Shown here: positions 3,192 through 14,726 of the stretch, one piece after another
Layout of the letters: each line of letters starts with the position of its first letter
Numbering within the stretch: position 1 is the first letter of the stretch
Source of the DNA: a virus
Virus record (IMG/VR): IMGVR_UViG_3300001968_000054
Span: 1-20,183 of that record
Length of the DNA stretch: 20,183 nucleotides
Strand: one strand, 5' to 3'
Program-made: the position numbers and the translations under genes
Notes under the pieces: model-generated
Database searches by the model: none
What the model was told of the DNA's origin: nothing
Seen by the model: the letters and a program-made list of their open reading frames with translations, nothing else

Positions 3192-4346
3192 TTAGTTATG
3201 CAGTAGATGAGTCAGTTCGGGCCATAGCTGTTCAAACTGTCCCTGTTTGTCCGGGTGCCAGCGATGTTCGGTGTCTCGTATATGCTGCTGGAATGCTAGC
3301 GATACCGGTTGGGACTGAGTTGGGCCTTTTTGCAAATTGTCACGCGCATGTTCAAAAAACTGCCGCTCGCTGTCGGCCATCACAGTACCGCAACGATCCA
3401 TCAATCGATCCACTTCCTGGATGGCCAGTTGCCGTGTAGATGGACCATGCTGCACCGGATCAAGGTACACAGGCTGGAACAGATTTTGCCACAGCACTGT
3501 AAGTGCACGTGACTGTGCCCACTCTCGGAATTCAACAAGGCGTGTGCAGTTGTAAATGTTGTACACTGCATGGATACCACCCCAGTGTCCTTGATCACGC
3601 ATCAGACCTTGTATGCGATCTATGTTGCGATTTAGCAGACTCCAATCGCCGCCGTGGCGCACATACTCATATCTGTCGTGTATGTTATCAAAACTCATGC
3701 TCCAGCCCACACGATGTCTCTGGGAGATTTTTTGGAATATGCGATTGTGCTCCAGATCCACTGAGGTATTGGTGATCAGAGTCACTATGCAATCCCGTGG
3801 TATAACATCCAGTAGTCGTTCATTTTCGGGCAATAGCAGAGGTTCACCACCTACCATGGCCACTTCACGTATGTCCGTGGCGTGCTGTTGTAGGAAGTCG
3901 CAGACCTGATCATAATAGGGACGCGCCTGGCTGCGTACCACGCGTCCATCCTGTATGCTCTGCCACCGGCTGCTGCAATAGGGTCCGCAGTAGTTGCAGC
4001 TGAGATTACAGGTGGTGTTCCAGCGTATGTCTATGATCGTGGGATCAAAATAGTCCAGCTGGGCCCGGGCAGGGTCAAAATCCTGATTCACATCATTGTG
4101 CCAGTGTCGCTCGCTGCGTCCATACTGCTCGGCCTGGATGCAGTTGCGGCAATATTTGGGGTGTAGCTGTCCCTGCTGTATGGTCTCGCGTATGCCGCGC
4201 AAGGTATTTCCGTGCACAATATCTTGTATGGAATGCTGGGTCAGTGAACCCAGCATGTTGGGATCACCCGCACAGCAGGTCTTGACGTCGCCGCGGAAGT
4301 TGATGTGCAGACCGCGCCAGGGCGCTGCACAGTATTTGGGTTCCAT
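3192..4346 (-). CDS. Radical SAM enzyme with N-terminal twitch/SPASM-like domain
   Basis: A 384-residue iron-sulfur enzyme that would cleave S-adenosylmethionine to make a radical. The radical SAM CxxxCxxC motif is CNLSCNYC (Cys113, Cys117, Cys120), followed by the GGEP SAM-binding motif (166-169) and a TLITNTS strand. Before it, residues 1-70 hold a cysteine-rich region (Cys6, Cys24, Cys25, Cys66, Cys69; KTCCAGDPNMLGSL and HPKYCRNC) of the twitch/SPASM type. Such domains hold an auxiliary Fe-S cluster in peptide-modifying enzymes but normally follow the core. No substrate peptide is obvious next to it. It lies between the secreted nuclease and the large terminase, 4 bases from the latter. 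The start at 4346 has no ribosome-binding site. The family is sure; the reaction is unknown. Confidence 0.88.
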   Translation of the reverse strand: MEPKYCAAPWRGLHINFRGDVKTCCAGDPNMLGSLTQHSIQDIVHGNTLRGIRETIQQGQLHPKYCRNCIQAEQYGRSERHWHNDVNQDFDPARAQLDYFDPTIIDIRWNTTCNLSCNYCGPYCSSRWQSIQDGRVVRSQARPYYDQVCDFLQQHATDIREVAMVGGEPLLLPENERLLDVIPRDCIVTLITNTSVDLEHNRIFQKISQRHRVGWSMSFDNIHDRYEYVRHGGDWSLLNRNIDRIQGLMRDQGHWGGIHAVYNIYNCTRLVEFREWAQSRALTVLWQNLFQPVYLDPVQHGPSTRQLAIQEVDRLMDRCGTVMADSERQFFEHARDNLQKGPTQSQPVSLAFQQHIRDTEHRWHPDKQGQFEQLWPELTHLLHN

Positions 4347-4350
4347 CTGC

Positions 4351-4358
4351 TATTTACT
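4351..4358 (-). promoter_or_regulatory. Late-promoter-like AGTAAATA close to the radical SAM start
   Basis: AGTAAATA lies only 4 bases upstream of the radical SAM ATG, in the 51-base gap after the nuclease gene. No Shine-Dalgarno sequence is visible. If active, the RNA would be leaderless or start inside the codon, so function is uncertain. Confidence 0.3.
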
Positions 4359-7521: not shown

Positions 7522-7673
7522 TATCGCATTCCTCGTGGTGCATACTGCTTCAACCATGTATTTAGCACACCCAGCGCGTGTGGGGGTATGGCAACAGGAA
7601 CTGAGGCAGGCACAGTCACGCGATTGTTACCGGGACGCTGCACAGAGATGCTAGTACGGAAGCTGGTGATCAT
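7521..7673 (-). CDS. Small 50-aa conserved-looking protein
   Basis: A 50-residue ORF starting MITSFRTSISVQRPGNN and ending LNTWLKQYAPRGMR. It begins at the ATG overlapping the endonuclease stop (TGATG), with AAGG 9 bases upstream, and ends overlapping the next start (TAATG). Both one-base overlaps, the ribosome-binding site and the return to non-AT-rich composition support it as a real gene. A longer in-frame reading from 7778 runs through the endonuclease and is not favoured. The sequence is short, with beta-type Val/Pro-rich residues and a Trp-containing helix. No function is known; a minor structural protein is likely from context. Confidence 0.65.
   Translation of the reverse strand: MITSFRTSISVQRPGNNRVTVPASVPVAIPPHALGVLNTWLKQYAPRGMR
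7559..7566 (-). promoter_or_regulatory. Possible late promoter GCTAAATA inside the 50-aa gene
   Basis: GCTAAATA on the minus strand lies 37 bases upstream of the 94-aa gene's ATG at 7521, with GAGG between. It would give a leader of about 30 bases. It is a two-mismatch variant of TATAAATA, so support is moderate. Confidence 0.45.
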
Positions 7674-8311
7674 CAATTTAGACCTTGCAAGTTCCAATCT
7701 TTCCTTGCCCATTTTTTTACTAAATCTGACGTTACACCAACAGTCTGGGCTATCGCTTTGATTGTCAGACCTTGACATCTAAGGTCTTGGATTTTATCAA
7801 ATTGATCTTTAGTAAGGCTGCGGCGAGTCATAGCTCTTTTGTTTATTTGCGCCGGGGTCCATTTGACCCAAGGTTTTTTCATACCTATGTGTTTCTCGGA
7901 AATCAACTTTTTAGATTCTGGTTTATGTTTTTTGTTTTTCATGCCTGCATAATTTTTTGGTATACCTTTTAGAGCCTTACTTCTTGCCTGATTTGACTCT
8001 GCCGACATAATAATACCGTTATTACCGTCGCCACCTTTAGTGGCATTATATCCACTGTGATAAGAATTATATTCTGCAATTAGAGCAATTTCTCTGGCTT
8101 TTGCTTGATCAATCGTTTCTACATGTTCCAGAGTTTCAACTTGCCAGCAATCGCAACCGTACTTTCTAATTGCATTATAAAATTTTCTATTATCTCTTTT
8201 TTTCAGGGCATCATTGATGTGTCTTTGCCAACGATCCTCGACAGTTTTACCGGTCCACCCGATATAGATTTTTTGATTATGTGTGTTGGTTATTTTATAA
8301 ACAAATGCCAT
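7673..8311 (-). CDS. Second GIY-YIG homing endonuclease
   Basis: A 212-residue endonuclease starting at the ATG at 8311, one base after the preceding stop. A longer in-frame reading from 8440 only overlaps the upstream gene and adds nothing family-like. GIY-YIG signature: VYKITN (4-9), KIYIGWTGKTVEDRWQRH (14-31, with Arg27), the catalytic Glu74 in a REIALIAEYNS helix, and GYNATKGGDG (88-97). The C-terminal half is Lys-rich DNA-binding sequence. It ends in a helix-turn-helix-like segment (about 163-205, with LTIKAIAQTVGVTSDLVKKW). It is clearly AT-rich compared with flanking genes and differs from the first endonuclease in its C-terminal domain, so the two are separate acquisitions. Its stop overlaps the next ATG (TGATG). 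No late promoter is seen immediately upstream. Confidence 0.9.
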   Translation of the reverse strand: MAFVYKITNTHNQKIYIGWTGKTVEDRWQRHINDALKKRDNRKFYNAIRKYGCDCWQVETLEHVETIDQAKAREIALIAEYNSYHSGYNATKGGDGNNGIIMSAESNQARSKALKGIPKNYAGMKNKKHKPESKKLISEKHIGMKKPWVKWTPAQINKRAMTRRSLTKDQFDKIQDLRCQGLTIKAIAQTVGVTSDLVKKWARKDWNLQGLN

Positions 8312-12988: not shown

Positions 12989-12996
12989 TATTTATC
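12989..12996 (-). promoter_or_regulatory. Late promoter GATAAATA before the 202-aa gene
   Basis: GATAAATA on the minus strand overlaps the TGA stop of the gp16-like gene. It lies 18 bases upstream of the next ATG, with a GAGGAT ribosome-binding site in between. It probably drives the 202-aa, 628-aa and endolysin genes, which are tightly packed behind it. Confidence 0.7.
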
Positions 12997-13492
12997 AGTG
13001 ATTGGTTTTTTGCCCGTCACCGTTGAGTATGTGTGCCAGCAGTTCATTGCGGCTCATGGCCATGCCTGTGCCCGCCTGCGGCGGTGGTGTGTCCCCGCTT
13101 TGCTGGTCCAAACGCACTTTTTTCAGCTGGAGATCTATCATCCGGAGCTTCTTGTTCAGCTTGGCTGTTTTGGCCGTGATAGCATGGCCCAGGAGGTTGC
13201 TGGCCACCCCAAAAATCTCGCTGCTGAAACGCGCATCCACGTTCATGCCCAGATCCATGAGATCCTGGTAGCTTTTGGTGGCCATCTGTGCTAGATCGTC
13301 CATCTCTTGATCGGATGCTTCCAGGCCACGCACACCGGGCAATGCTGCATCAATCTTGTCAATTGTGGCATCAATGGCCGTGATGGTCTGGGGATCTAGG
13401 GGCAGTTCAGACGGGACTGCAGGCTCTGCGCCCAATGGTGGCAGAGGTTCGGACTCGGGCAGGTCAAAAAGTTCTTCCAGTTTCTTGGTCAT
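12995..13492 (-). CDS. gp16: Putative terminase small subunit (T4 gp16-like)
   Basis: A 165-residue protein, close to T4 gp16 (164). The N-terminus is acidic and Pro-rich (LEELFDLPESEPLPPL). The middle is two long helices, MATKSYQDLMDLGMNVDAR and EIFGVASNLLGHAITAK followed by a Lys-rich KLNKKLRMIDLQLKKVRL helix (about 66-130). The C-terminus is short and disordered. This matches the layout of gp16, whose central helical hairpin forms the ring that stimulates gp17. There is no enzyme motif. The start overlaps the endonuclease stop (ATGA), and its own TGA stop overlaps the next late promoter. The call is from architecture, length and the presence of gp17 in the region; an unrelated helical structural protein is possible. 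Confidence 0.6.
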   Translation of the reverse strand: MTKKLEELFDLPESEPLPPLGAEPAVPSELPLDPQTITAIDATIDKIDAALPGVRGLEASDQEMDDLAQMATKSYQDLMDLGMNVDARFSSEIFGVASNLLGHAITAKTAKLNKKLRMIDLQLKKVRLDQQSGDTPPPQAGTGMAMSRNELLAHILNGDGQKTNH

Positions 13493-14268
13493 GCCATATT
13501 TAGTGGCCGTACAGTCCAGCCCTTCCAGTTTGATTTTTTACCTGAGTTGACACTTGACATATGAGTATAAGTTAGTCCTAATTCCTTACATCCGTCTTTC
13601 AGACGATCATAGTGGTATTCCTGTCCTTGAGGCGACTCAATTACCACTGGTTTACCCGATCGACGGATACCAGTCTTACCTTTGTTCCACGGCACCCTTC
13701 CCTTCATATTTTTGGACATTTTTCTGCGAGTTTCTTCTGATTTTTTCTTTCCAGTATTGCAAAGTCTGAGTTTTTCTTTGGTTATTTCAGTCATTGGTGT
13801 CTTTGGGCCAAGCGACATTCCTTTATTCCAGGCCACCTGCGCACCCTTGACACCTTTGTTCCACGGCATACGTCCTTTGAGTTTTTCTCTATGTTCTTTG
13901 GACATTTTTCTGCCTCTCATTTTTAATTTCTGTTCTTCTGTCAGAGTTTTTCCTTTCCTTGATGGAGGATTTGAATTTTTAGAGATGTTCAACAAAATTC
14001 CCCCCGGATCGTAACCCTTGCGACCATACTGTTTGATCAGACTCTCTTCAAGTTGATAAGCATCGGATTCACAATCAAAATGCGCTATTTCCTCTATTAT
14101 AGGATCCAATCCTAATTTTTTCAGAGATTGGATTCGAAAAAATTTTCTTTTGTTTATAGTTGATTTGATTGTTTCTTCTAGGTGATAGAATTTTCTATCA
14201 CCGGAACCTTTTCCAATATAAAACGGGAGATTAGAGCGAGGATCGATATATTGATAAACATAAAACAT
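13489..14268 (-). CDS. Free-standing GIY-YIG homing endonuclease with NUMOD3 repeats
   Basis: A 259-residue mobile endonuclease. The GIY-YIG nuclease domain is N-terminal: the YVY motif at residues 3-5, YIG at 17-19, Arg25 and the metal-binding Glu75 in a YQLEESLIKQYG helix. Residues about 102-195 carry several NUMOD3-type DNA-binding motifs (K-rich SEE.R.KMS repeats and W-NKG repeats). Residues about 206-253 look like a NUMOD1/IENR1 helix-turn-helix (ESPQGQEYHYDRLKDGCKEL, ending NWKGWTVR). The coding region is visibly more AT-rich than its neighbours, consistent with transfer. It lies between the gp4-like and gp16-like genes, and its stop overlaps the gp16-like start (ATGA). The start at 14268 is supported by an AAGGA site and a late promoter. 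Nothing suggests it is broken. Confidence 0.9.
   Translation of the reverse strand: MFYVYQYIDPRSNLPFYIGKGSGDRKFYHLEETIKSTINKRKFFRIQSLKKLGLDPIIEEIAHFDCESDAYQLEESLIKQYGRKGYDPGGILLNISKNSNPPSRKGKTLTEEQKLKMRGRKMSKEHREKLKGRMPWNKGVKGAQVAWNKGMSLGPKTPMTEITKEKLRLCNTGKKKSEETRRKMSKNMKGRVPWNKGKTGIRRSGKPVVIESPQGQEYHYDRLKDGCKELGLTYTHMSSVNSGKKSNWKGWTVRPLNMA
13497..13504 (-). promoter_or_regulatory. Late-promoter-like ACTAAATA just before the gp16-like start
   Basis: ACTAAATA lies only 4 bases upstream of the gp16-like ATG, inside the end of the homing endonuclease. It shares TAAATA with the promoter at the other end of the endonuclease gene. There is too little room for a normal leader, so it may be a relic of the pre-insertion junction rather than a working promoter. 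Confidence 0.3.
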
Positions 14269-14294
14269 GCAGCTTTCCTTTTAGCATGTTTTAT
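14260..14294 (-). promoter_or_regulatory. Hairpin covering the homing endonuclease ribosome-binding site
   Basis: A perfect 11-bp inverted repeat (14260-14270 and 14284-14294) encloses a 13-base loop. On the minus strand the AAGGA ribosome-binding site is in the loop and the ATG (14268-14266) is in the 3' arm. In read-through RNA the start would be sequestered. Late RNA starting at the overlapping promoter would lack the 5' arm and be free for translation. T4 I-TevI is controlled this way. The fold is seen directly; the function is inferred. Confidence 0.65.
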
Positions 14295-14299
14295 TTATC
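14292..14299 (-). promoter_or_regulatory. Late promoter GATAAATA overlapping the gp4-like stop
   Basis: GATAAATA on the minus strand contains the TAA stop of the gp4-like gene. It lies 23 bases upstream of the homing endonuclease ATG. Its last three bases are the first three of the hairpin described at 14260-14294, so a transcript starting here would lack most of the hairpin's 5' arm. Confidence 0.7.
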
Positions 14300-14726
14300 G
14301 TTTACCATTGCGAAAAATATCGTGCTCTGTCAGAATTCTGAAAGTCAGACCTTGTCTTTTGCAAAATTGTTCGGCCGCCGCCCACTTGCAGTAGTTCACA
14401 GCCACAACAGCTCGTTCGCGGTTGCTCATCTTGCTCTCGACCACGCTCTGCTTCTTGGGCTTGATCTCCACGATCTCGGCGTGGATGTGATTTTTGCTGT
14501 CCCGATAGCGTATAAAGAAATCCGGAACATAATTGGTCATCTTGCCTGTGAGCGGATGGCGATAGGGGATGGATATTGCTTCACTGGCCCATTGCAAAAT
14601 ATGATTATTCTGGTCAAGAAATACCATAAACGAAAGTTCCCAGCCCGATCGGTATCTGGGCCTGTTTTTGCCCACATACTTGGCAGGGTTCCGGACCACA
14701 TATTCACCCTGCGCCCAGCGTCTCAT
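14295..14726 (-). CDS. gp4: Head-completion nuclease-like protein (T4 gp4/gp50 type)
   Basis: A 143-residue protein with the restriction-endonuclease-like fold seen in T4 gp4, the head-completion protein needed before tail joining. Visible motifs are YRSGWELSFMVFLD (E30 the likely first acidic residue), ILQWASEAISIPY, YVPDF (D69) and VEIKPKKQ (E87-x-K89), giving a PD-(D/E)xK active site. T4 gp4 is about 150 residues. The start overlaps the preceding stop (ATGA). The TAA stop is embedded in the late promoter GATAAATA that precedes the homing endonuclease. In T4 the gene lies in another cluster, so this placement is a rearrangement relative to T4. Confidence 0.85.
   Translation of the reverse strand: MRRWAQGEYVVRNPAKYVGKNRPRYRSGWELSFMVFLDQNNHILQWASEAISIPYRHPLTGKMTNYVPDFFIRYRDSKNHIHAEIVEIKPKKQSVVESKMSNRERAVVAVNYCKWAAAEQFCKRQGLTFRILTEHDIFRNGKR

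Follow-up and report, generated by a model that had tools for sequence, protein, structure and literature searches.

How a mobile endonuclease gene lying among the late structural genes of a phage might be kept from heavy expression off its neighbors' mRNA is the question posed by a hairpin at the start of one such gene in a virus record of 20,183 bases (the whole stretch analyzed, hereafter the window). The window's minus strand carries a late structural block with genes for tail sheath, tail tube, gp4-like head closure protein and terminase. As the gene order is that of the Pseudomonas jumbo phage PA5oct (Arenbergviridae) and the terminases are 52% identical, the virus is considered an uncultured relative of PA5oct's T4-type group. 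No close DNA relative of the window was found among annotated phages, and no relative of the endonuclease in bacterial and archaeal genomes.

The endonuclease matches the homing endonuclease group phrog_314 (5.9e-20), and Pfam LEM-3_GIY-YIG and NUMOD3 score above cut-off. GC content of the gene is 35-38%, with roughly 50-55% in its surroundings, and most relatives lack it, the next gene following gp4 directly in about 35 loci. Given the domains, the low GC and this absence, the 259-amino-acid frame most likely represents a homing endonuclease gene of the free-standing type. The features of the locus, all on the minus strand, are as follows.

14295-14726, minus: upstream gp4-like head closure gene with a TnsA-like nuclease domain (profile matches)
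14292-14299, minus: T4-type late promoter GATAAATA (motif; in relatives TAAATA shows strand bias and association with gene starts)
14284-14294, minus: 5′ arm of the hairpin, ATAAAACATGC, all 11 of its bases pairing with the 3′ arm
14284-14287, minus: predicted RNA 5′ end, about 14286 (from T4 late promoters and the 4-7 nt spacing of TAAATA and ATG in predicted leaderless genes)
14271-14283, minus: hairpin loop of 13 nt, with Shine-Dalgarno AAGGA at 14280-14276
14260-14270, minus: 3′ arm of the hairpin, GCATGTTTTAT, holding the ATG (14268-14266) and codons 2-3
13489-14268, minus: GIY-YIG (LEM-3-like)/NUMOD3 endonuclease gene, 259 amino acids (profile matches)
13493-13507, minus: late-promoter element of the next gene, GCCACTAAATATGGC, a small inverted repeat within the last codons of the endonuclease
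12995-13492, minus: downstream late gene, predicted leaderless (ATG 4 nt past TAAATA), which follows gp4 in relatives without the endonuclease

The far end of the endonuclease gene is also closely fitted to its neighbor. Its last codons, LNMA and stop, include the TAAATA of the next gene, and the stop overlaps the next ATG (GGCATGACC, 13489-13502); embedded promoters of such an arrangement favor retention of the element, according to a review (PMC2988022). A second GIY-YIG gene is present at 7673-8311 (minus strand), its ATG 1 nt after the stop of the upstream frame (TGATATG), and neither a late promoter nor a hairpin was seen there.

The hairpin, its putative promoter and two predicted RNA forms

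Across the endonuclease start the minus strand reads cgGATAAATAaaacatgcTAAAAGGAAAGCTgcATGttttat. The original prediction was of a perfect 11-bp inverted repeat whose loop holds the ribosome-binding site and whose 3′ arm holds the ATG, and of a late promoter that overlaps the outer edge of the 5′ arm and doubles as the stop codon of the upstream gene. Each of these elements is present: the arms pair throughout, AAGGA lies 7 nt from the ATG, and the 3 outermost nt of the 5′ arm also belong to GATAAATA, which includes the gp4 TAA (14297-14295). The 20-kb window has no second perfect inverted repeat with arms of 11 bp or more and a loop of 3-20 nt, none of this size and loop arose in 20 dinucleotide shuffles of it, and a local AT-rich control yielded a perfect repeat of the kind in 4 of 5000 shuffles. 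The RNA is predicted to fold at -17.4 kcal/mol (z -4.56); Rfam has no match in the window. Such rarity bears on the reading that an AT-rich gene start, ATGTTTTAT, fixed by an MFY motif, happens to lie beside an A-rich promoter and yields the stem by chance. The 3′ arm is indeed partly fixed by coding, and MFY is a frequent start of GIY-YIG proteins; nevertheless, with the comparisons given below, this explanation is very improbable.

The promoter octamer is near TATAAATA and varies at -13/-12, the first two letters, which are also variable in the late-promoter octamers of related phages (PMC2988020). ATAAATA occurs four times in the window, always on the coding strand, where 1.0 is expected. 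In 67 oriented loci of the lineage TAAATA is found 426 times on the coding strand versus 93 on the opposite strand. Hexamers with the same letters in other orders do not match this bias. The distances from TAAATA to the following ATG fall sharply into two classes, one of 16-26 nt with a Shine-Dalgarno and one of 4-7 nt without room for one. By strand bias and spacing, TAAATA is a real signal in the lineage and behaves like a late promoter. T4 late promoters precede the RNA start by roughly one helical turn (PMC2988020), and so the RNA from GATAAATA is predicted to begin near 14286, some 5-8 nt past TAAATA, retaining about 3, and at most 4, of the 11 arm bases. Near that 5′ end, at AUGCUAAAAGG (14287, minus strand), there is an out-of-frame AUG 4 nt past TAAATA that opens a short frame and could compete as a leaderless start.

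The arrangement is probably a translational switch, a promoter within a hairpin, carried by a mobile homing endonuclease gene. Read-through RNA from late promoters further upstream has both arms, so that its start codon would be buried in a long stem whose loop carries the Shine-Dalgarno, and it would be poorly translated; RNA from the internal promoter would lack the stem and be translated. Endonuclease output would then be tied to the gene's own promoter and stay low on the abundant structural-gene mRNA. Folding of both RNA forms, which the original prediction had called for, puts the predicted cost of opening the start region at 16.9 kcal/mol in read-through RNA versus 4.9 in promoter-initiated RNA, and the former is the highest among the window gene starts tested (the others are at 4.0-15.1 kcal/mol). 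Mean per-base accessibility is no lower in read-through RNA (0.65 versus 0.55), since the Shine-Dalgarno is unpaired in the loop; what is predicted to be blocked is the start codon together with the entire ribosome footprint, and it is only the opening cost of the whole start region that separates the two forms.

Read-through RNA had been described as untranslatable, and this is too strong. Because the gp4 stop abuts the 5′ arm, a ribosome finishing gp4 should cover and melt that arm, and terminating gp4 ribosomes may thereby open the hairpin. This leads to another reading, in which translation from read-through RNA is low and gp4-dependent and the promoter is a second source of translatable message. 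The directly adjoining stop (14297-14295) favors it, as does a stop within the first arm bases in the nearest homologue, L003, and coupling has been suspected for T4 mobE (PMC2988022); with the opposing evidence from homologues and relatives considered below it is rather unlikely, though it needs to be kept in mind. The likeness that had been drawn to T4 I-TevI holds for the logic of the switch, which comparison supports well, and not for timing. As the genes upstream of the endonuclease are themselves late, the hairpin would hold down the dose made from polycistronic late RNA; it would not keep early and late expression apart.

The mechanism is already known, from descriptions of I-TevI, I-TevII, I-TevIII, T4 segB and Aeh1 mobE (PMC2988022) and of T4 e, soc and 49 (PMC3014915), and the window is a further instance. 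Its application to a free-standing GIY-YIG gene, presented in the original prediction as a departure, probably holds here and is not new. T4 segB is such a gene, with a late-type promoter, CATAAATA, in the 5′ arm of a hairpin over its Shine-Dalgarno and ATG (PMC2988022), and its predicted opening costs (17.5 versus 5.8 kcal/mol) resemble those of the window. However, segB lies between tRNA genes and its Shine-Dalgarno is paired, whereas the window gene lies between late structural genes, has its Shine-Dalgarno in the loop and has a promoter that contains the upstream stop codon. With I-TevI, as with I-TevII and I-TevIII, the resemblance is that promoter-made RNA is without the 5′ part of the inhibitory hairpin, but I-TevI is intron-encoded, its read-through RNA is early or middle, and a DNA operator is also involved. 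Aeromonas phage Aeh1 mobE, though another free-standing homing endonuclease gene with a late promoter and a hairpin sequestering the ribosome-binding site, is of the HNH family and is inside a ribonucleotide reductase gene. The late genes e, soc and 49 of T4 likewise have the Shine-Dalgarno or AUG hidden in read-through RNA, and the late promoters of e lie in DNA that specifies the 5′ strand of its structure (PMC3014915), yet these are not mobile endonucleases.

The I-TevI operator prompts a different view of the repeat, that the endonuclease itself binds the repeat and promoter region as DNA to repress its own synthesis, with RNA folding incidental. I-TevI does repress its own late promoter via an operator resembling its homing site (PMC2988022), and TAAATA-N3-CATG is common to both ends of the window gene. 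Beyond that motif the likeness of the two ends is weak by eye, and the arms of a related family change letters while staying complementary and vary in length and in loop, which a hairpin fits better than a fixed protein site; autorepression of this type is improbable as the explanation of the repeat.

Homologues and related GIY-YIG families

The nearest homologue, L003, encodes an endonuclease with 67% amino acid identity at the same place after gp4. It retains a 44-nt block of promoter, hairpin and start with a single difference, in the loop, while the gp4 end and much of the coding DNA around the block have diverged; opening costs are 16.2 kcal/mol for read-through and 4.9 for promoter-initiated RNA. 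Near-perfect conservation of its 5′ arm, which is non-coding, is not expected of an accidental stem, though the absence of any compensatory change between the window and L003 is what an accidental stem would also give. In the other close homologue, L004 (L172; L004 4001-4770), the endonuclease is frameshifted near codon 58 and the stem is broken; the promoter and Shine-Dalgarno are still there, and the gp4 stop lies past the arm. By its sequence this is a decaying homing gene. Only these two close homologues were found, and the pattern agrees with a stem that is under selection no longer than the gene stays intact, two cases being few. The promoter motif is retained in both despite the differing position of the gp4 stop, which is against coupling to gp4 as the main source of translation.

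A scan with the fixed arms ATAAAACAT and ATGTTTTAT gave three further GIY-YIG genes (L244, L268 and L291), each with a late promoter and a hairpin that loops out the Shine-Dalgarno and pairs the ATG in its 3′ arm, the stems differing in their apical pairs; in the same scan, MFY-starting frames without a late promoter were not evidently endonucleases. Because fixed arms select for the hairpin itself, these matches served solely to seed a search by protein. That search gave 56 distinct upstream regions, 46 of them with TAAATA within 55 nt. The covarying loci belong to a GIY-YIG family different from that of the window endonuclease, a point that weakens their support for a switch in the window. 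In 24 non-redundant leadered loci the longest pairing between the start region and the sequence preceding the predicted RNA start has a mean length of 11.4 bp, compared with 7.7 bp (sd 0.38) when halves are swapped between loci, a control that retains some effects of shared ancestry. The excess persists without the seed copies and when redundancy is removed more strictly, to as few as n=10. Predicted opening costs for these loci are 16.4 kcal/mol in read-through and 4.8 in promoter-initiated RNA, against 6.2 and 3.9 for 44 structural late leaders (p 1e-10), and in the latter own stems are not in excess of swapped ones. Stems of this kind are absent from the structural late leaders, a further point against a chance origin.

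Covariation extends into coding sequence. In L308 the first codons are ATG CAC TAT, ATGCACTAT, and the non-coding arm, ATAGTGCAT, matches them. Such codon-arm covariation, with own stems longer than swapped ones, weighs strongly against the incidental reading. In L310, L311, L316 and L336 it is the Shine-Dalgarno, and not the ATG, that is hidden in the 3′ arm. As with T4 segB, tRNA genes are nearby, in 36 of 39 non-redundant family loci, and since most adjoin tRNA genes, coupling to upstream translation is not what maintains the hairpins of the covarying family. More broadly, L304-L383 make up a large GIY-YIG family, mostly adjoining tRNA genes of many isotypes, with two switch layouts, ATG hidden or Shine-Dalgarno hidden.

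For the promoter-in-hairpin switch, then, the search of homologous loci proposed earlier shows at close range a stem kept in L003 without compensatory change and lost in the frameshifted L004, and in the related family arms that covary. The conserved block, the loss with gene decay and the covariation together indicate from sequence that the hairpin structure is kept by selection, and the arms that change letters and still pair, first codons included, suggest that such hairpins are under active evolutionary maintenance in many related phages. Uncultured jumbo phages would thus share a classic regulatory trick of T4, and TAAATA together with a start-hiding stem offers a sequence signature for predicting how phages quiet mobile nucleases.

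Late promoters and predicted leaderless genes of the lineage

The 4-7 nt class of TAAATA is represented in the window by three minus-strand sites.

13497-13502, minus: TAAATA 4-7 nt before an ATG
4351-4356, minus: TAAATA 4-7 nt before an ATG
1616-1621, minus: TAAATA 4-7 nt before an ATG

In two large lineage contigs of 332 and 347 kb (G002 and G003; L136-L170) TAAATA is 4-5 nt before the ATG of a frame of at least 50 codons at 24 and 26 sites, with 0-10 such sites for other hexamers of the same letters. So short a distance between promoter and ATG predicts that many late genes of this jumbo-phage lineage yield leaderless mRNAs. In the cultured relative PA5oct the late promoters are mostly leadered, and searches of the open-access literature, which gives partial coverage, turned up no description of T4-type phages with leaderless late genes. 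If confirmed, the pattern would be a distinct mode of phage late-gene expression.

Small covarying hairpins flank TAAATA in two families of the predicted leaderless class (alignments A1 and A2), one of the gene after gp4 and the other of a gene whose protein starts CAAPWRGLH (window 3192-4346). The arms include GCGG/CCGC, GCTG/CAGC, CCCG/CGGG and GCCC/GGGC; covariation in the gene-after-gp4 family is weaker in fixed register. Other leaderless families are without small covarying hairpins. It is conceivable, though still doubtful, that for a broad group of uncultured jumbo phages of T4 type a start-hiding hairpin with the late promoter inside it is a general rule kept up by selection, more than a peculiarity of a few T4 genes; it would serve many homing genes of the GIY-YIG class and, on a small scale, late genes predicted to be leaderless, around their TAAATA with the ATG 4-5 nt after, so that only RNA from the gene's own promoter would be translated.

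Two broader versions were considered and set aside. Hairpins around TAAATA in leaderless genes genome-wide give a weak signal in the two large contigs and a strong one in the two families only. That all leadered late genes of the lineage carry such hairpins is rejected, as own stems equal swapped stems, though single cases exist. Among single late genes of other kinds, L006 (the tail tube gene), L119, L105 and L081 have a stem in which the promoter region pairs with the ATG or the Shine-Dalgarno, that of L119 being ATCCCATA-GGAGATTC-TATGGGAT.
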